Of a stretch of DNA of 6,571 nucleotides, positions 1 through 6,571 are shown in pieces. The translations under genes and the position numbers were made by a program. The DNA is taken from the NCBI GenBank assembly GCA_030746455.1, contig JASLMQ010000361.1, positions 1 through 6,571 on the forward strand, given 5' to 3'. The notes beneath the pieces are model-generated. The model saw only the letters and a list, made by a program, of their open reading frames with translations, searched no databases and had not been told where the DNA came from. Source of the stretch: Candidatus Latescibacterota bacterium. GTDB taxonomy: Bacteria; Latescibacterota; UBA2968; GCA-2709665. Each line of letters starts with the position of its first letter. The first letter of the stretch is position 1.

Positions 1-340
1 CCCATGCCTCGAGCATCCGATCGCAGCCTTCGGTGCTGATGGCCATGGGCTTTTCGGAGAAGACGTGCTTGCCGGCTTCGAGGGCGTCGCAGACGTACTG
101 CTCGTGGGTGAAGTCGGGACTCATCACGGCAATCGCGTCGACGTCGTCCCTGTCGAGCAGGGCTCGGTGGTCGTTGGTGGTGAAGCCCTGGTCGTTGACG
201 TTGTTGCGGAACCATTCGAGGCTTCCGTCCGACACGTCGGCGGCGCCTACGACGACGGAGCGTCCCTTCGGATCGTGCCAGTGCTTCGCCATCCCCCCTC
301 GTCCGGATGCGCCGATGACGCCGATTCTGACTGCGGTCAT
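1..340 (-). CDS. Gfo/Idh/MocA-family oxidoreductase, N-terminal part (runs off the window)
   Basis: This is the first 113 residues of an NAD(P)-dependent sugar or polyol oxidoreductase, ending in the Rossmann domain at the window edge. The protein opens MTAVRIGVIGASGRGGMA, a beta strand followed by a glycine-rich dinucleotide loop (residues 7-16). Asp35 sits where the acid after the second strand usually contacts the ribose. SPDFTH (residues 74-79) and GKHVFSEKPMA (90-100) are family hallmarks, and Lys97 of the EKP motif is the usual catalytic lysine. The start at 340 is supported by a GAGAGGTAGG ribosome-binding site just upstream and by the position of the first strand. The gene lies 184 bp after the sulfatase and is not a close copy of the oxidoreductase at 5157-6230: the nucleotide loop and the residues around EKP differ. 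The missing C-terminal domain would hold the substrate-specificity residues, so the substrate is unknown. Family assignment is confident. Confidence 0.93.
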   Translation of the reverse strand, partial: MTAVRIGVIGASGRGGMAKHWHDPKGRSVVVGAADVSDGSLEWFRNNVNDQGFTTNDHRALLDRDDVDAIAVMSPDFTHEQYVCDALEAGKHVFSEKPMAISTEGCDRMLEAW

Positions 341-390: not shown

Positions 391-421
391 ACCACGGATG
401 AACACGGATAGACACCGATGG
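391..421 (-). repeat. Periodic intergenic repeat, 10-nt units (family 1)
   Basis: On the plus strand three near-identical 10-nt units can be read: CACGGATGAA, CACGGATAGA and CACCGATGGT, starting at about 393. The element ends 50 nt before the oxidoreductase start at 340. From memory, near-identical word-like motifs recur in intergenic DNA of unrelated environmental bacteria and produce spurious hypothetical proteins; this was not checked. On the strand sense to the gene it holds only three A residues in 31. Function unknown. Confidence 0.75.
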
Positions 422-452
422 TGGAGCTCCCAAGCCCGATGATTGGGGGCTG

Positions 453-494
453 GCACGAAGAGCGTGCAGGTTGGAACACCGGCGAGAACCTGCA
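453..494 (-). terminator. Possible terminator hairpin after the sulfatase
   Basis: TGCAGGTT (465-472) and AACCTGCA (487-494) form a perfect 8-bp inverted repeat with a 14-nt loop, starting about 30 nt after the sulfatase stop codon. A second, overlapping 5-bp hairpin, GCACG/CGTGC, spans 453-467. There is no clear T-run on the minus strand, so this is a weak intrinsic terminator at best. It may only protect the mRNA 3' end. Confidence 0.35.
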
Positions 495-524
495 ACCCTA
501 CCCGTGTCACCGGCTGCTTACGAT

Positions 525-1850
525 CTATGGCATCAGCGGGGAGTCGACGTCGTCCCGCCGGGAGGTGTCGTCCAGCTCGCGCTGCTGGCGGATCATCTCG
601 CCGAGATCCTTGACCTTCTCCGGGTGATCGGCGGAGACCTCAATCTCTTCGTAGGGGTCCTCGGCGATGTTGAACAGCTCCCCCTCGTCCGACCTCTCTC
701 CGGGCGTGGAGATGAGCTTCCAGTCGCCGCAGCGCACGCCGAGCTTCGCGGCTCCCCTGAAGTTCCAGAAGATGCACCGATCGTCCATGCGCTCGGCCTC
801 GCCCGTGATCAGGGGCCAGATGTCCGTGCCGTCCCACTGCGGATCGTGCTGGAGTCTGGCCTCGGAGAGCTTCGTGAAGGTGGGCATCCAGTCGGTGACG
901 TGCACGGGGTGATCCATCTTCCGGGGAGCCAGCGTGCCGCGCCAGTTCACGAGGGTCGGTGTGCGAATCCCTCCCTCGTACATCTGAGCCTTGACACCGC
1001 GGTAGGGCAGGTTGGAGCCGAGGCGTGGATAGGCCTCCTGCCAGCCGGGGTACTTGTCCGTGGCGTGGATGGGGGTGTCGTTGACGGCCCCGTTGTCGGA
1101 GGAGAACACGACGATGGTCTCTTCGCGCTGGCACAGGCGCTCGAGCGATTCGAGCAGCTGGCCGATGGCGTGATCCATGTGCGTGGTGTAGGCGGCGTAC
1201 TTCTTGTAGGAGGCGTCTTTGTCCGGATCGTCATCGAAGTGCTCGAACTCGTACTCGCTGAGCGAGGCCCGTGTGGGCTTGATCGGGATGTGGACCGCGG
1301 TGAAGGGGACGTAGCAGAACCATGGACGGTCGCGGGTCTCGATCCACTGGACCGCCTCGCGGCCGATCAGGTCGGTGACGTGCCCGCGCTCCTCGACGAG
1401 CTGGCCGTCGCGATGCCAGGTGACGCAGAACTCGCCCCGCTTGTAGCGGTGGTTGTAGGGATCGACGCCGCCGGCCAGGCTGCCATAGCCCTTGTTGAAG
1501 CCGAACTGGTTGGGCCCGAAGCGGGGCAAGGACCCGAGGTGCCATTTCCCGAAGAGGCCGGTGTCATAGCCCGCATCGCGGAGGACGGTGGCCATGGTGG
1601 GGTAGCCGTCGGGGAGGACGGGGGCGTTGGAGGGCACGGTGGCGTGGGACCCGAAGCGCCCGGGGTGTCGGCCCGTGAGCAGACAGGCCCGGGTGGGCGT
1701 GCACATGGGGCAGACGTAGTGCTGGGTGAGCTCCACTCCCTCGCGTGCGAGCCGGTCGATGTTGGGGGTGCGGATGGGCGAATCGTGCAGGCTCAGGTCG
1801 GCCCAGCCGAGGTCGTCGGCGAGGATGTAGAGGATGTTGGGGCGTGGCAT
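525..1850 (-). CDS. Formylglycine-dependent sulfatase (arylsulfatase A-like, S1 type)
   Basis: This 441-residue enzyme is predicted to hydrolyse a sulfate ester, probably on a carbohydrate. The N-terminus PNILYILADDLGWADLS (residues 4-20) carries the metal-binding Asp pair at 12-13. The sequence PMCTPTRACLLTG (48-60) matches the sulfatase signature, with Cys50 (codon TGC at 1701-1703) as the residue to be oxidised to formylglycine. The second signature region GYDTGLFGKWHLG (94-106) supplies Lys102 and His104. His187 and the Asp252-Asn253 pair in FSSDNGA complete the usual metal and sulfate site, and YEGGIRTP (291-298) is a conserved family stretch. No key residue is missing. The start at 1850 follows AGGAG with 10 nt spacing and places the first strand correctly. 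This form has no signal peptide, although many family members are exported. The frame stays open far upstream, but no ATG, GTG or TTG lies in the roughly 48 codons before this start. The activating enzyme is not in the window and the substrate is unknown. Confidence 0.96.
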   Translation of the reverse strand: MPRPNILYILADDLGWADLSLHDSPIRTPNIDRLAREGVELTQHYVCPMCTPTRACLLTGRHPGRFGSHATVPSNAPVLPDGYPTMATVLRDAGYDTGLFGKWHLGSLPRFGPNQFGFNKGYGSLAGGVDPYNHRYKRGEFCVTWHRDGQLVEERGHVTDLIGREAVQWIETRDRPWFCYVPFTAVHIPIKPTRASLSEYEFEHFDDDPDKDASYKKYAAYTTHMDHAIGQLLESLERLCQREETIVVFSSDNGAVNDTPIHATDKYPGWQEAYPRLGSNLPYRGVKAQMYEGGIRTPTLVNWRGTLAPRKMDHPVHVTDWMPTFTKLSEARLQHDPQWDGTDIWPLITGEAERMDDRCIFWNFRGAAKLGVRCGDWKLISTPGERSDEGELFNIAEDPYEEIEVSADHPEKVKDLGEMIRQQRELDDTSRRDDVDSPLMP

Positions 1851-1860
1851 GGTATGGGAA

Positions 1861-1865
1861 CTCCT
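1861..1865 (-). promoter_or_regulatory. Ribosome-binding site fixing the sulfatase start
   Basis: AGGAG on the minus strand lies 10 nt before the ATG at 1850. It decides between this start and the much longer open frame that continues upstream to 2414. Confidence 0.7.
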
Positions 1866-1904
1866 GAGGGGTGGGGGCGATTGCCTATCCCGAACAGCAA
1901 GAAT

Positions 1905-1938
1905 CGAAACTACGAAAAACGCGAAAGACGCGAACGAG
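1905..1938 (-). repeat. Periodic intergenic repeat, about 9-nt units (family 2)
   Basis: Plus-strand units are CGAAACTA, CGAAAAACG, CGAAAGACG and CGAACGAG, starting at 1905, 1913, 1922 and 1931. The element ends 54 nt before the sulfatase ATG. On the strand sense to the gene it has a single A. It reads in frame with the sulfatase as a hydrophobic peptide, LSFASFAFFVV, which looks like a signal sequence but has no start codon. Function unknown. Confidence 0.75.
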
Positions 1939-2103
1939 AGGCGGCGAGCCGGGATCGGCTTCGGGTGGCCGGCTACGAGATCTGGTAGATAGAGCCTGGG
2001 TATGGGAGCGGGTAGTCCCCAGCGCTGCGAGGCGTACGCGCGTTGGCGGCAGGCCGGACGGGTCCCGCATATGGGCAGCGCGCAATATAGTGCGCATAGA
2101 GAC
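1939..2103. other. Intergenic stretch without a recognised gene
   Basis: Between the family 2 repeat and the terminator I see no protein, RNA gene or clear promoter. The only structure is a small hairpin, GCGCA/TGCGC, at 2080-2095 with a 6-nt loop. Open frames here on both strands look like chance products of G+C-rich DNA. Confidence 0.5.
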
Positions 2104-2127
2104 AGGGCGCAACGGGAGTTGCGCCCT
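2104..2127 (-). terminator. Strong hairpin, likely terminator of the exported-protein gene
   Basis: AGGGCGCAAC (2104-2113) and GTTGCGCCCT (2118-2127) form a perfect 10-bp stem closed by four bases. It begins 108 nt after the stop codon at 2236, on the downstream side of that gene. The minus-strand sequence after the stem is TGTCTCTATG, only moderately T-rich, so termination may be partial or factor-assisted. A weaker hairpin, TCCCCAGT/ACAGGGGA with one mismatch (2153-2177), lies between the stop and this stem. Confidence 0.6.
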
Positions 2128-2235
2128 TGGTGGTGGGTCGTTGTCGGGCAGATCCCCAGTCCGAGAGAGACAGGGGACCCGTCGGGCCGACTCACAGGGC
2201 TGTGAGGACTCCATGTGGGGGGGTGTAGCAGGACC

Positions 2236-3099
2236 TCAGGGGCTCGGGAGTATGGCCTTGACGAAGCTCGGGAGTATGCTTGTTCCATCGACACCCAAAG
2301 CCAAACCCACATGAGATGGTCGGTCCTGGCCGAAGTACGCGCCAACGCTGAGCCGGACTGGGCTCTCGATGACCAATCCTGGCGAGGACCAGAAGGAGAA
2401 GGGGAACAAGACAAGACCTAGATAAAGCTCGCGCCCTGGGCGCCCGAAGGACGTCATGCCAATCAATCTGACACTTGTTCTCTCTGTTCGTATGATCGGG
2501 TACTCCACCCCAAACATGCCGTTGACGCGCTCCAGATCTGCCCTAATGGTATCCCTACCCACTACCTTCAGCGTGTCAACGAGTTCCCCTCTGGGGAAGA
2601 ATGCTGCGAAAGTTAGACCTGGGGGTTGATGGGCATAGGCCCTCAGGAGGAGCGGCTGTGCGGCGCCCTTGTTGTTTGTGTCGAGCACCTGCACGTCCAT
2701 GTATTGGTTTCCTAGATCGTCACTGAGTTTCCAGGCATCGGTGGCGACACATCGCTTGCTTCCGTCTGGGGACGTCTCCAACCTTGGTTGAGCCTGGAAG
2801 GGCCCACGCTGTCCAGAGGCCTTGCCATCGGGCAGAGGCCAGAATTGAAGGCGCAACTCATTGCATTCGCAATTGTCGGCAATCGCAACAGAGGAGTCCC
2901 CTGCCGTCGCCTGCTTCTTCCTTATCTCGATCTTCACTAGATTTGGCAGTGGCTTGCCTCTGTACCACCCCTGACCATCGCCTTCCACGACCCTTAGCTC
3001 GTACCTGGGTTGCGCCCCAAGGTCGACAGGCCGAGTGATGAGTTCCTCCGCAAAGAGGCCCAGAAGAAACAGGATTTGCACTCTCCGATAGAGAAGCAT
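2236..3099 (-). CDS. Predicted exported protein with a possible Ig-like domain and beta-rich C-terminus
   Basis: This 287-residue protein is not recognised as a named family. It starts MLLYRRVQILFLLGLFAEE, a basic start and hydrophobic core that fit a signal peptide or N-terminal anchor, and LGAQ (about residues 27-30) could be a cleavage site. From about residue 32, YELRVVEGDGQGWYRGKPLP resembles the first strands of bacterial Ig-like (invasin-type) domains. WKLSDDLGNQYMDVQV further on would fit the later strands of the same fold. The last 90 or so residues alternate hydrophobic and polar positions (for example ELYLGLVLFPFSFW), as in outer-membrane or beta-barrel segments; this part is inference. 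AAGGAG six nt before 3099 fixes the start over an in-frame ATG at 3282. Base composition is lower in G+C than the neighbours (28 of 60 at 2461-2520 against 41 of 60 at 1501-1560, counted by hand), and its leader lacks the periodic repeats. Both suggest a different origin. Confidence 0.75.
   Translation of the reverse strand: MLLYRRVQILFLLGLFAEELITRPVDLGAQPRYELRVVEGDGQGWYRGKPLPNLVKIEIRKKQATAGDSSVAIADNCECNELRLQFWPLPDGKASGQRGPFQAQPRLETSPDGSKRCVATDAWKLSDDLGNQYMDVQVLDTNNKGAAQPLLLRAYAHQPPGLTFAAFFPRGELVDTLKVVGRDTIRADLERVNGMFGVEYPIIRTERTSVRLIGMTSFGRPGRELYLGLVLFPFSFWSSPGLVIESPVRLSVGAYFGQDRPSHVGLALGVDGTSILPSFVKAILPSP
2242..2278. repeat. 13-nt direct repeat at the end of the exported-protein gene
   Basis: GCTCGGGAGTATG occurs exactly at 2242-2254 and again at 2266-2278, a period of 24 nt. 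Because 24 is a multiple of three, the C-terminus repeats in frame: ILPS, four residues, ILPS, then proline and stop. It may be a small slippage or duplication event. Confidence 0.7.
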
Positions 3100-3105
3100 C
3101 TTCGG

Positions 3106-3111
3106 CTCCTT
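3106..3111 (-). promoter_or_regulatory. Ribosome-binding site fixing the start at 3099
   Basis: AAGGAG on the minus strand is six nt before the ATG at 3099. It places the start directly before a signal-peptide-like N-terminus. The in-frame ATG at 3282 would add 61 residues of no recognisable character. Confidence 0.75.
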
Positions 3112-3346
3112 GTGGTTGAGGGAGGGACTAACCCTGCCTTGGAGCAGACCGCGCCACGGTGCGCAATTAAGGGGCATCCAGTCATTGAGCTTGGTGATCA
3201 GGTACATGCTCCGAACTTGCAGGGGGTGGCACGCTTCGACAGGGCTAGACAGATGATGATCCGCAACAGGTCGCCGCTTCACTCCGCCCGTCGGTTGTCG
3301 ACTTTGCCAGGTCCGGAACCGGCGGGCATTTCTCTGTACTGTCGAT

Positions 3347-3399
3347 CACAAACACAAAAGCCCAGGTGGCGTCGCATCGGCGCAGACGCATCTGGGCTT
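3347..3399 (-). terminator. Rho-independent terminator-like hairpin
   Basis: On the minus strand AAGCCCAG followed by GCGTC pairs with GACGC and CTGGGCTT (3399 down to 3358), about 13 bp with a small AU/CAC internal loop. The stem runs into CTTTTGTGTTTGTG, a T-rich tail. It would stop transcription arriving from the promoter at 3603-3630 or from the glycosidase-like gene, about 250 nt before the exported-protein start. Confidence 0.65.
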
Positions 3400-3461
3400 C
3401 TTCGGGAGACAGAACTGACGATGGACCCTCCCGACAGGGCTACTAGCCAGGGCCCCAGATG
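3389..3461 (-). promoter_or_regulatory. Possible antiterminator pairing
   Basis: On the minus strand CATCTGGG (3461-3454) is perfectly complementary to CCCAGATG (3396-3389), which is the 5' arm of the terminator. The two pairings exclude each other. The first segment can instead be tied up by its neighbour, TGGGGCCC with GGGTCCA further downstream. This three-way choice is the layout of an attenuator. It is inferred from complementarity only. Confidence 0.35.
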
Positions 3462-3602
3462 GCCATGTTAACGGATGGCCGAGTACGCGTTGGTCCTCAG
3501 CGAGGACCTCTCACCTGAGCCTATTACGTCCTACAAGCCACCCCCGACGGTGACTGAAGTCCGCATCCCGGAAGCCTATGAGTAGGCCTTCAGGACGGAA
3601 GT

Positions 3603-3630
3603 AATATAACTGCAATTTTCGGTCTGTCAA
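3603..3630 (-). promoter_or_regulatory. Sigma70-type promoter, minus strand
   Basis: The minus strand reads TTGACA (3630-3625), a 16-nt spacer, then TATATT (3608-3603). This is a perfect -35 box, five of six bases of the -10 box and a near-optimal spacing, in a locally A+T-rich patch. Transcription would start near 3596. It lies just after the glycosidase-like gene and points towards the candidate RNA and the exported-protein gene. I noticed no comparable promoter elsewhere in the window. Confidence 0.6.
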
Positions 3631-3734
3631 CCCCCAAATGAAGGAAGAAGCCTTCTCGGATTGCTGTGGCTGCCGAGCAGGACATGAATGGCGTAACCTT
3701 TTGTGCTCCAGTAGTATATGTCTTGAAAGCCTGG

Positions 3735-5027
3735 CTATTTCTTGAGGTCGAATGTCACGAGTTCCGAGGTACCCTGCCACATAATCCCGTTGTGGCCGGT
3801 CTCGAAGACCCCGTCCCGGATCGCAACGATGTCTCCCTTCGGCCAGCCCTCGCCGTGGATGATGGGGAAGGACGGGATCTCCTCGGGCAGCGCCAGGCGT
3901 GCCTTGACCAGGTCGTGCAGGATGATCTCAGTCAGCGGGATGCTCTCGGCCAGGGCGTCGGGATCGTGGGCATTGTAGCCAGCTTCGGTCTCGGGGAGGC
4001 CGATCCCGCCGTAGCCTGTGACCGTGTAGATGATTCGGAGGGCCTCCTCCTCACTCAGCGATGGGTGGACACCTCTCAGGAGTTGCGCCAGCTCGATGAG
4101 GCCCAGGGAGACGAACTGGTAGACGTGGGAGACCAGCGGACTGGCGAAGTCGGAGAAGTCGGCCCAGTGGGCGTGATTGTGGCCGACAAGCATCGAGAGG
4201 GAGGCGGGATAGGTGTCGCAGCCGAAGACGAAGTCCTCTCCGGCGGCGGCATGGACCGCATCGCGGAACCGTTTTACGTTGCGGGCGAGCAGATCGGCGC
4301 GGAAGCGGAGCCAGTCGGCGATGCTGGAATCGCCGCCGAGAACCTGGAGGAAGTCGAGCGGGCCGGTGCCGCCCTTGCAGGCAGTGACCAGGCGCGCCGG
4401 GTCTATGCTCCCGAGCCTGTCGAGACCTGATGATATCGACGCGCGCATGGCGGCCATATCGAAGCCGAGCTCGCAGGCGCTCTTGGAACAGTCCTCACAG
4501 GCGCAGGCGAGGAGCCCCCTTGGGAAAGAGATCATGGGATACCGTGCGTGGGTGATGTCGAGACCGTCGACCCCGGCGTTCGTGGCGAGGTGGACATAGT
4601 AGGCCTCGTACCAGTCGTTCACGGCTTCGTTCGATGGACAGAACATGAGGCGGCGCAACGTCCAGGAGCCGCTGCAGATCCAGACCTCGCATCCGGCCTC
4701 ACGCGCGATGTCGACTGACCTGCGGAAGTCGGCGTCGTTCCCGGCTCCGCCTACACTGGGGCCGACGGAGCCGCGCACCTGGTCGAACTCCAGTGGATCG
4801 ACCGGTTCGCCGTCCATATGCTTGGCGACGATGGCGTGGAGGCATTCATCGGAAAGCGGAACGCCGTCATAGGGGCTCTTGGCCAGCACGTCCTCGGGTA
4901 GCTGACCGGAGAAGCCGAGGATCGCCAGGTTGAGGCCAATGCCATCGACGAGGGCCTTGATGTAGTCCGGGTTGTCGAGGACGAGCTTTGTGGTCAGGTA
5001 GACGCCAGTGCGGTTCCTCTTGTCCAT
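3735..5027 (-). CDS. TIM-barrel, glycoside-hydrolase-like protein
   Basis: This 430-residue protein has no signal peptide. It shows the layout of a (beta/alpha)8 barrel of the glycosidase-like kind. Strand-like segments include GVYLTTK (8-14), LNLAILGF (32-39), CEVWICSG (113-120), GVDGLDITHARYPM (152-165) and GHNGIMWQG near the C-terminus. The order CPSNEAV (130-136), then the strand ending in Asp157 and Arg162-Tyr163, then a short cysteine cluster CACEDC (175-180), resembles poorly characterised glycosyl-hydrolase-like families whose barrel strand 4 reads VDG(I/L)xxDxxRYP. Asp157 is the best candidate for a functional acid. The first Met, at 5027, follows GGAG with a 6-nt spacer. It lies 129 bp after the oxidoreductase at 5157-6230 and may share its transcript. 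A carbohydrate-active role is inferred; the exact family and substrate are unknown. The cysteine cluster might instead bind a metal. Confidence 0.8.
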   Translation of the reverse strand: MDKRNRTGVYLTTKLVLDNPDYIKALVDGIGLNLAILGFSGQLPEDVLAKSPYDGVPLSDECLHAIVAKHMDGEPVDPLEFDQVRGSVGPSVGGAGNDADFRRSVDIAREAGCEVWICSGSWTLRRLMFCPSNEAVNDWYEAYYVHLATNAGVDGLDITHARYPMISFPRGLLACACEDCSKSACELGFDMAAMRASISSGLDRLGSIDPARLVTACKGGTGPLDFLQVLGGDSSIADWLRFRADLLARNVKRFRDAVHAAAGEDFVFGCDTYPASLSMLVGHNHAHWADFSDFASPLVSHVYQFVSLGLIELAQLLRGVHPSLSEEEALRIIYTVTGYGGIGLPETEAGYNAHDPDALAESIPLTEIILHDLVKARLALPEEIPSFPIIHGEGWPKGDIVAIRDGVFETGHNGIMWQGTSELVTFDLKK

Positions 5028-5093
5028 GGGGTACTCCGATCACGTTGTGCGCTCAAGCAGGGGCACGGGCCTCATCGCGAGGATTCTGGATGT

Positions 5094-5128
5094 AGGCAGA
5101 AGGCAAAAGGCAGAGGGCAGAAGGAAAG
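5094..5128 (-). repeat. Periodic intergenic repeat, 7-nt units (family 3)
   Basis: Plus-strand units are AGGCAGA, AGGCAAA, AGGCAGA, GGGCAGA and AGGAAAG, an exact 7-nt period from 5094. The element ends 66 nt before the glycosidase-like start and has no A at all on the strand sense to the gene. From memory, this motif is also common in intergenic DNA of environmental bacteria. Function unknown. Confidence 0.8.
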
Positions 5129-5156
5129 GCGGCCATTGCTGAGGCCAAGGGAACTT

Positions 5157-6230
5157 CTATTCCTTGATGGCGTTGGGGCCGCGGTACTGGTAGTCCCGAT
5201 CCACGTCGTCGGGCAATCCGTCTGTGAAGGTCATCGGCTGGCCGGTCTCGATCGATCGGTACAGCGCCAGTCCCAGCGCGATGTTCTTGAGGCCCGTGAT
5301 TCCGCTGTTCTCCGGTTCCGTGTCATTCTCGATCGCACCGAAGAGGTCGGCCAGCTCTAGCTCGAAGGCGAGCACGTCGGAACAAGGGAAGAGCTCAGGC
5401 TCCTCGGCGCCCGGGCGGTGGTGCTTGACCGGGTCGTCCCACCCGTCGAAGGCGAGCGCGCCGGACGTGCCTGAGACCCAGTACACAAGACCGGGCAGGC
5501 CCACGATGCCGCCCTGACGGAACACGACTGATGACCCGTTCTCGAAGCTGATGAGGGCCTGCAGCATCACGGGGCTGATGTGGCCGTCGTAGTCCTCTTT
5601 GCCGGAGATCCCGCAGTAGATCGAGGCGACGTCCCCGAAAACGGCGCGAATGAAGTCCAGCTCGTGGACCGAGCTCTCGAGGATGTTGCCTCCGGAATAG
5701 CGCGTGTCGAACCGCCAGGGCTTCCTCGACCGGAGGGGAGGTGGCGTACCGGCCTGCCCCGAGCGCGATGAACCGACCCGGTGGATCTGGCCCAGGCAGG
5801 GGGTGCCGATCAGACCCTCTTCGATGAGGCGGCGCGTGGTGAGAAAAGCTCCCCAGAAGCGGATGGTGTGGCCGACGGCGAGCTTGACGTTCGCGGCGGC
5901 ACACGCGTCGACCATGTCCTGGCACTGGCCGATGGTGAGGGCCATCGGCTTCTCGCAGATGACGTGCTTGCCCGCCTCCGCCGCCTGGACGACGAGATCC
6001 CGGTGGGTGAAGGTGGGGGTACAGACGATGACGACGTCGACGTTGGAAGAGTCGAGCAGCGCCTCGTAGGTGGCGGCGACAGGAGCGCCCGCTTCTTCGG
6101 CGCGCGCTGCGGACGCTTCCTCGTTGGGGTCGTACACGAGGACGATTTCGCAATCGGGGTGACTGCCCGTGGCCTTCACCCACACGCGGCTGATGCCGCC
6201 GCATCCGACGAGACCGATTCGGTGGTGCAT
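5157..6230 (-). CDS. Gfo/Idh/MocA-family oxidoreductase
   Basis: This complete 357-residue NAD(P)-dependent oxidoreductase probably oxidises a sugar, inositol or derivative in the cytoplasm. The Rossmann domain starts RIGLVGCGGISRVW, with the glycine-rich loop at 9-12. Asp34 sits after the second strand, and CTPTFTH (70-76) and GKHVICEKPMAL (87-98) follow, with Lys94 as the usual catalytic lysine of the EKP motif. VGHTIRFWG (119-127) opens the C-terminal domain. GGNILESSVHELDF (180-193) is the family's active-site helix, with His189 in the usual place, although the Asp common two residues before the Gly-x-His is replaced (ESSVH). Length is normal for the family. The start at 6230 follows AAAGG with suitable spacing. 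It sits 113 bp after cutC and 129 bp before the glycosidase-like gene, which suggests a sugar-use cluster. The substrate cannot be told. Confidence 0.94.
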   Translation of the reverse strand: MHHRIGLVGCGGISRVWVKATGSHPDCEIVLVYDPNEEASAARAEEAGAPVAATYEALLDSSNVDVVIVCTPTFTHRDLVVQAAEAGKHVICEKPMALTIGQCQDMVDACAAANVKLAVGHTIRFWGAFLTTRRLIEEGLIGTPCLGQIHRVGSSRSGQAGTPPPLRSRKPWRFDTRYSGGNILESSVHELDFIRAVFGDVASIYCGISGKEDYDGHISPVMLQALISFENGSSVVFRQGGIVGLPGLVYWVSGTSGALAFDGWDDPVKHHRPGAEEPELFPCSDVLAFELELADLFGAIENDTEPENSGITGLKNIALGLALYRSIETGQPMTFTDGLPDDVDRDYQYRGPNAIKE

Positions 6231-6284
6231 CAGAATTGCCTTTCGGCTTCGGCTGAGCGCTAGGTTCTGTGAAGAGCGGACTCC

Positions 6285-6329
6285 CGCAGAGACGCAGAGC
6301 CCGCAGGGAAAGGCGAGAAGCAGAGAAGG
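6285..6329 (-). repeat. Periodic intergenic repeat, 8-9-nt units (family 4)
   Basis: Plus-strand units are CGCAGAGA, CGCAGAGCC, CGCAGGGAA, AGGCGAGAA and GCAGAGAA from 6285; the last two are degenerate. The element ends 54 nt before the oxidoreductase start and has no A on the strand sense to the gene. It fills most of the gap between cutC and the oxidoreductase. Function unknown. Confidence 0.75.
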
Positions 6330-6343
6330 TGGTCTGTCTGGTA

Positions 6344-6571
6344 TCAGGGCTTCCCGATAGCCGCGACGAGGGTTTTGACCCGGGAGGCGTCGGTGGTCTT
6401 CCAGGCATACTCGTCAGGACTGTATTCGGAACCCATGGCGCAGCGAGGGTTTCGGTGCTCCATCTTGCTGTGGACCGGTGACCTGGCGGAGACGTGGACC
6501 TCCCGGGCGCCGCTCTGTCCGACGACCTGCGCGACGTTGCCTTCGTCGATCTCGCCACCGGGCATGACTAT
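6344..6571 (-). CDS. cutC: CutC-family protein, C-terminal part (runs off the window)
   Basis: The visible last 75 residues begin IVMPGGEIDEGNVAQVVGQSGAREVHVSAR. This matches the conserved C-terminal barrel strands of the CutC family, where a PGGG(I/V)xxxN turn is followed by a GAxExHxSAR strand. SKMEHRNP and a closing stretch with TDASRVKTLV also fit. CutC is a TIM-barrel protein historically linked to copper homeostasis; its biochemical role is uncertain, and in genomes of this type it often lies near sugar genes. One glycine of the usual PGGG is Glu here. The ATG at 6565 is internal, because the frame stays open to the window edge. The stop is TGA at 6344, followed after 113 bp by the oxidoreductase. 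Confidence 0.88.
   Translation of the reverse strand: MVMPGGEIDEGNVAQVVGQSGAREVHVSARSPVHSKMEHRNPRCAMGSEYSPDEYAWKTTDASRVKTLVAAIGKP

Follow-up and report, generated by a model that had tools for sequence, protein, structure and literature searches.

Why should four short repeats, each built on a different unit, lie at almost the same distance before four start codons? The question is raised by a contig of 6,571 nucleotides from a Candidatus Latescibacterota bacterium (JASLMQ010000361.1), referred to below as the window, meaning the whole stretch of DNA analyzed. A preliminary description had placed four tandem arrays in the window, numbered 1 to 4 here, and all four were found in the sequence. 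The distances from array to ATG are indeed 50, 54, 66 and 54 nt (the genes are on the minus strand and start at 340, 1850, 5027 and 6230), and A is nearly missing from the gene's sense strand, with 3, 1, 0 and 0 residues in arrays 1 to 4. Rather than switches for start codons, the four repeats are probably solo ends that belong to miniature mobile elements of two families.

Complete elements in related genomes

The comparison set consisted of plasmids and 64 genomes from a related phylum. The way into this phylum was L001, a relative of the protein encoded at 3735-5027 of the window. The results on dispersal, orientation and insertion come from these genomes and plasmids, not from the window's source genome. 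The architecture of the elements, their dispersal, their insertion polymorphism, a rule of orientation and the formation of stems in silico are all observed in these relatives. A complete element is typically 0.4-0.6 kb long and carries a single small gene between two like arrays, the first with its purine strand forward and the second reverse-complemented. This gene encodes either a GxxExxY protein (PD-(D/E)XK nuclease fold), with words mostly of 8-10 nt, or a four-helix bundle of the 23S-IVP type, with words mostly of 7 nt. There are also shorter forms, namely solo arrays and array pairs, of which many are separated by a spacer of 25-27 nt.

The GxxExxY family (PF13366, TIGR04256) has matches in 26 of the 64 genomes. 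For this family and for the four-helix bundle, 30 returned loci each were inspected. At most GxxExxY loci, a forward array precedes the gene and a like array, reverse-complemented, follows it; the words are mostly of 8-10 nt. Word A flanks the gene at L135, L140, L144 and L160 (at L139 upstream only), word B (AACTACGAAA..CGCGAAA or similar) at L142 and L146, and word C at L145, L148 and L159 (at L143 upstream only). A word like that of array 2 is carried by L142, L146 and L157, and other words are found at L133, L136, L138, L152, L153 and L161. In a flank test, which calls for an inverted match with a score of at least 17 between the 220 nt upstream and the 220 nt downstream, 20 of 29 GxxExxY loci passed compared to 2 of 250 ordinary genes (Fisher p 1e-21, orthologous loci not collapsed). 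The top-scoring control gene, L103:19166-19531, is itself the GxxExxY gene of L160. When mismatched pairs of flanks served as the control, a locus's own pair beat the best of 60 in 16 of the 29 loci. The proteins conserve G.G..E..Y, a D and E-x-K, the pattern to be expected of the predicted PD-(D/E)XK nuclease. A search of the PDB by sequence gave no homologue of GxxExxY, and four proteins had no match to the defense systems in PADLOC.

The second family, PF05635 (23S_rRNA_IVP, TIGR02436), has matches in 23 of the 64 genomes, 19 of them above the family cut-off. Its genes are flanked mostly by heptamers, for example AGGCATA/AGGCAGA (L203), TTGGTGA (L217, L218) and ATTCCAG/AATCCAG (L210, L228), with octamers at some loci (L204, L226). 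The flank test was passed by 12 of 30 loci compared to 2 of 250 ordinary genes (Fisher p 2e-11), and the own pair beat the best of 60 mismatched pairs in 5 of 30. On cyanobacterial plasmids, six four-helix-bundle genes have heptamer arrays, on both sides in five of them. The sequence homologues in the PDB are 2gsc and 2rld, and two proteins that were scanned are distant relatives, below curated cut-offs, of Avd of the diversity-generating retroelements. Folded in silico, the elements at L237 (z -7.6) and L160 (z -2.9) form an outer stem from their arrays.

Outside the phylum, one of four plasmid GxxExxY loci, in Bernardetia, has a word-C-like inverted pair around the gene (by eye). On this sample, the connection between arrays and genes beyond the phylum is thin for GxxExxY but not for the four-helix bundle.

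In the relatives, words similar to those in the window occur as dispersed repeats. Pattern C (CCRCAGAGRCRCAGAG..., word 4) has 406 matches in 23 of the 64 genomes, 218 of them in G003, and pattern A (CCACGGATGAACACGG..., word 1) has 385 in 22 genomes, 95 of them in G033; several of the genomes counted hold just one or two matches. The same patterns read backwards gave 10 (C) and 0 (A) matches in the 64 genomes. In the nearest genome by the protein at 3735-5027, G020 (62% identity), neither pattern was matched at the thresholds used. GxxExxY genes are present in 19 of 23 genomes with at least three matches to A or C compared to 7 of the 41 others, and in 20 of 34 with at least one match compared to 6 of the 30 others (relatedness not corrected).

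The solo arrays share more than a word with the gene-bearing element. Among 29 type-A copies in G032 and G033, two of which are the ends of element L160 itself, 26 are preceded by AAGCA (23 copies, 21 of them as AAAAGCA) or ATGCA (3 copies). On the inner side, 11 of the 29 continue with AAGGC, and few pairs of inner sequences are similar. Of the short paired forms of word C, 18 pairs were chosen by eye in G002, G003 and G007; all 18 are convergent, and the spacer is 25-27 nt in 12 of them.

Window arrays compared with element ends

The window arrays were scored against the flanks of 34 GxxExxY and 36 four-helix-bundle loci, against the other strand and against the flanks of ordinary genes. The best match of array 1 is the upstream flank of the GxxExxY gene at L139, with 25 of 29 bases and a score of 20.2 compared to 11.4 for the other strand and 17.0 for ordinary-gene flanks, which hold solo arrays. 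Array 2 matches the downstream flank of the GxxExxY gene at L146 at 27 of 30 positions with one gap (21.6 compared to 10.4 for ordinary genes). Array 3 matches the downstream flank of the four-helix-bundle gene at L203 at 28 of 31 bases (24.4 compared to 12.4 for the other strand and 10.8 for ordinary genes), and its word is also found at a Stanieria gene (L240). From these sequence matches, arrays 1 and 2 are each predicted to be an end of a GxxExxY-type element and array 3 an end of a four-helix-bundle-type element; array 4 may be a worn end of the GxxExxY type. The repeats had been called unrelated, and their words do differ; even so, two, perhaps three, would be words of one element family, and one would come from a second family with the same architecture. 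The window arrays are at most gene-less copies, and four independent solo ends are the simplest reading. Each array would then stem from an insertion of its own, and no shared role in regulation would be required of them.

Insertion at sites empty in relatives

Both elements and solo arrays are absent from the same site in relatives, which indicates that they insert. For example, a four-helix-bundle element lies between nrdB and nrdA in Nostoc edaphicum, where Calothrix sp. NIES-4105 has 40 bp, and another lies between an integrase gene and the next open reading frame (ORF) in Calothrix brevissima, where three relatives have 3 bp. An Aulosira element gives a similar contrast with Microchaete and two others. 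The plasmids in this comparison came from Calothrix, Nostoc, Aulosira, Tolypothrix and Microchaete. At the GxxExxY locus L139, the anchors are about 1.76 kb apart in G032 and 20-42 bp apart in five relatives; the right end of this insert has a different word. Beside the GxxExxY gene, the insert holds a gene with a SocA/Panacea domain (L139:2298-2954, G032:C53), so GxxExxY elements may carry cargo.

Solo arrays were checked at four sites in an 11-kb stretch of G032. At the site labeled break 5, G032 has 124 bp compared to 13 bp in six relatives, and the site is filled in G033, G031 and G035; at break 6, it has 104 bp compared to 23 bp in seven relatives. At the third site, two relatives have 22-24 bp, five have 101-158 bp of other sequence, and the array is common to G033 and G036. 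The fourth array is absent in two relatives and present in G033 and G036. At two of the four sites, another genome has an array of a different word at the same spot, which suggests that sites are re-used. Possible short target-site duplications can be seen by eye at breaks 5 and 6, but their left and right copies differ.

In the same genomes, a different repeat, GGGCGGGCACAGGGGCACCGCCCCTAC (L080:12361-12415, G032:C77), is also polymorphic between relatives and was matched at several places in G038.

Placement and orientation relative to genes

Array orientation was surveyed with our own gene finder over 1.192, 0.197 and 0.382 Mb of three genomes; arrays in which purines make up exactly half of the bases and gaps shorter than 15 bp were left out. 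Intergenic arrays with a period of 7-10 number 73, compared to about 0.6 in shuffled intergenic DNA. In 61 of the 73, the purine strand is directed away from the nearest gene, with 35 beside a stop and 26 beside a start; the 12 in the opposite direction are split 6 and 6. By period, the outward rule is followed by 42 of 45 arrays of 8-10 nt and by 19 of 28 of 7 nt. A loose pattern count fits the rule as well, with 38 matches in G032 and 9 in G033 that fall inside predicted genes excluded. In the window, arrays 1 and 2 follow the outward rule. The common orientation of arrays before starts in the window is thus half of a symmetric rule, and the shared direction of its four arrays may be chance (1 in 8).

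The preliminary description had offered an insertion preference for 5' untranslated regions (UTRs) as one reading. The polymorphic inserts in relatives do lie at gene boundaries, which bears out part of this idea, but they are not confined to starts.

Evidence against the reading and alternative explanations

Several observations weigh against solo ends of mobile elements. In the window, neither of the two genes nor a piece of one was found (tblastn, best E 0.06, one-window search), and no inverted partner was found there for any of the four arrays. In a partner search over 71 arrays, 16 outscored each of the eight controls (8 expected), so that most solo arrays are without a visible second arm. 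Array 2 scores nearly as well on the other strand (18.6 compared to 21.6), and the best match of array 4 is short, at 14 of 15 bases (L143), with 12.8 compared to 11.0 for ordinary genes. Arrays 3 and 4 point toward the nearest gene, contrary to the majority rule, and the heptamers as a class follow that rule less well. Among the element genes, 9 of 29 GxxExxY and 18 of 30 four-helix-bundle loci fall below the flank threshold, and counting orthologues (L140/L160, L143/L145/L148, L150/L151) once reduces the GxxExxY result to about 17 of 25. Four genomes with at least three word matches have no GxxExxY hit. On plasmids, the GxxExxY flanks are direct, not inverted, in Fusobacteria, and weak and direct in Persicobacter; in Gemmatirosa, an inverted CGCGGAT pair lies only downstream of the gene. 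The L160 site is mixed, with 576 bp in G032 and G033, 48 bp in G039 and another stretch of about 1.05 kb in six relatives. By eye, this last stretch (G030, G031, G034-G037) resembles an oxidoreductase gene.

Some of these points would be explained if the arrays were a separate repeat, merely bound or used as a landing pad by both genes, which did not spread it. Arrays far exceed genes, with 218 type-C pattern matches compared to 5 PF13366 hits in G003; in some genomes, arrays occur without any GxxExxY hit; and the Gemmatirosa pair is beside its gene and not around it. Nevertheless, many gene-bearing elements carry like inverted words at both ends, and flank similarity rises with the relatedness of the GxxExxY proteins (Spearman 0.31, permutation p 0.0005, 23 of 30 loci kept), although the ends are not fully separable in this comparison from other shared flank. 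A separate repeat is therefore considered unlikely.

Much less probable is a leader or other regulatory role, which the preliminary description had offered among its readings and in which arrays at a fixed distance before starts would serve as protein-binding sites or function within the 5' UTR. The four window distances span a range of 16 nt, which has a P of about 0.007 compared to the arrays of relatives (post hoc, drawn from 32 of 33 distances). Three of the four intergenic gaps span only 113-184 nt, which calls for caution on the distances, and for arrays 3 and 4 the stop of the upstream neighbor is closer than the start. A published parallel also speaks for a leader: the TAACTGA direct repeats of Beggiatoaceae are short intergenic heptamer arrays, patchy across phyla, as here, but in the main genome most of them directly precede starts and share one orientation, and a translational role is proposed by MacGregor 2015 (PMC4679880). 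In the relatives, however, start distances vary between -12 and 324 nt with no peak like that of the window, and at two of the four sites checked, six or seven relatives have no array in the corresponding gap. Outward arrays are found beside stops as often as beside starts, which is the result that had been named in advance as speaking against a leader, so the idea fails in the relatives.

Neutral tandem expansion through slippage of the polymerase at numerous sites, without any mobile element, would account for the varying lengths of arrays and for one perfect 15.8-copy array in G032, yet it is very hard to credit since a word recurs at different sites with the same flank outside the array (AAAAGCA, 21 of 29 exact), breaks 5 and 6 gain an insert of about 80-110 bp and not an expansion, and inverted array pairs flank two gene families.

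Proposed mechanism and known systems

If the window arrays are solo ends of mobile elements, the encoded protein would be expected to bind or cut its own array word and could mobilize gene-less copies in trans. Copies at gene boundaries would be the least harmful and would therefore survive, and this would leave the outer (5') side of an array facing the neighboring host gene. Ends made of tandem arrays would allow several protein subunits to bind side by side, and slippage would allow the words to drift. For the four-helix bundle, a route through RNA and a reverse transcriptase is a guess from its relation to Avd.

The elements would then be parasites like the REPIN-RAYT system, without a known transposase. 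That system also has many short extragenic inverted doublets, would-be hairpins and an associated protein gene nearby (Bertels and Rainey 2011, PMC3116915). Here, though, a PD-(D/E)XK family and a four-helix bundle take the place of a tyrosine transposase, the ends are tandem words of 7-10 nt, and most copies are solo. The enclosed genes belong to PF13366 and PF05635; the genomes were not searched for RAYTs. A second likeness is to the intervening sequences (IVSs) of 23S rRNA, in which an S23p ORF lies between terminal inverted repeats, preceded by three heptamers (GACAGAT), with a 28-bp terminal stem; the IVS is termed selfish and its horizontal acquisition is proposed (PMC4990558). IVSs are inserted within 16S and 23S rRNA genes, whereas the annotated neighbors of the named copies and of the window arrays are protein genes; also, both ends are word arrays here, and there are gene-less copies.

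The outward placement seen in the relatives has already been published for G-rich heptamers of Xanthomonas and Nostoc, which lie within 50 bp after stops (sense) or before starts (antisense), with 70 and 75 convergent pairs in two xanthomonads and few in Nostoc; in the available text, they were generally not found to be tied to mobile elements, and no associated gene family is named (PMC4692102). The BrickBuilt MITE (miniature inverted-repeat transposable element) of Porphyromonas gingivalis also has a minisatellite within an intergenic miniature element, but its 23-nt unit is internal and does not form end arrays, and the abstract has no link to GxxExxY or the four-helix bundle (PMC4596501). 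In the open-licence PMC literature, as far as its available text goes, GxxExxY is mentioned in a gene list and in a note on a reverse-transcriptase neighbor, and no paper was found there that links dispersed arrays to GxxExxY or four-helix-bundle genes.

The reading offers one possible source for short periodic intergenic repeats, which several papers have described without a settled origin, and a hypothesis on the role of two common uncharacterized families. It suggests why the published bias (after stops in sense, before starts in antisense) resembles regulation but need not be regulation, and it predicts a cognate protein for each array word. A wider proposal is put forward tentatively, with confidence that falls a little short of even: that an unnamed broad class of selfish DNA, with word-array ends and no known transposase, has arisen at least twice. 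A GxxExxY nuclease with word-specific recognition would mobilize one branch, and an Avd-like four-helix bundle, acting through RNA and a borrowed reverse transcriptase, the other. Such a class would be the source of many intergenic short tandem repeats in cyanobacteria, xanthomonads and environmental phyla.

The 23S_rRNA_IVP family is reported to co-occur with Cas4 and Cas6 (PMC3936711). On Anabaena and Pseudanabaena plasmids (L238, L239), a four-helix-bundle gene with heptamer arrays lies between cas6 and cas4, and two related plasmids are without the Anabaena gene. Elements of this kind may account for the published co-occurrence, which suggests why four-helix-bundle genes occur inside cas loci. 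At the site of the Anabaena element, Dolichospermum has another stretch with inverted ends, TAGGTTGGGTT...AACCCAACCTA (L244:155-420). In Aulosira (L242:440-860), an element seems by eye to have removed the last codons of the upstream ORF and to provide a new stop.

Arrays and genes of the window

The features of the window are collected in Table 1. The start at 1850 was read from the sequence, inside a longer ORF. Tandem Repeats Finder (TRF), run on the window at a low threshold (30), confirmed units of 10, 9 and 7 nt for arrays 1 to 3. Array 4, described as having units of 8-9 nt, is weakly periodic; it is absent from the TRF listing at this threshold, its periodicity score is below 8, and its good units are the first two or three only. 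Segments with a periodicity score of at least 9 number three in the window, compared to a mean of 0.285 in 200 dinucleotide shuffles.

Table 1. Repeat arrays and host genes in the 6,571-nt window
Feature	Positions	Strand	Unit or family	Remarks
Array 1	391..421	+	10-nt word CACGGATGAA	TRF 393-420; outer side is the left
Array 2	1905..1938	+	9-nt word CGAAAGACG	TRF 1913-1934
Array 3	5094..5128	+	7-nt word AGGCAGA	TRF 5094-5124
Array 4	6285..6329	+	irregular 8-nt word CGCAGAGA	missed by TRF
Gfo/Idh/MocA host gene, partial	2..340	-	Pfam PF01408	start 50 nt from array 1
Sulfatase host gene	525..1850	-	Pfam PF00884	stop 103 nt beyond array 1; start 54 nt from array 2
Host gene	3735..5027	-	no Pfam family	start 66 nt from array 3
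Gfo/Idh/MocA host gene	5157..6230	-	Pfam PF01408	stop 28 nt beyond array 3; start 54 nt from array 4
Host gene, partial	6344..6571	-	no Pfam match	stop 14 nt beyond array 4

The protein encoded at 3735-5027, which has no Pfam match, is 430 amino acids long and has 240 relatives at E <= 0.001 among the scored candidates. In the relative G032, the perfect 15.8-copy array (L107:2890-3015, G032:C33) is built on the 8-nt word GACGAATA and has a worn inverted partner; it is perhaps a recent expansion of an element end.

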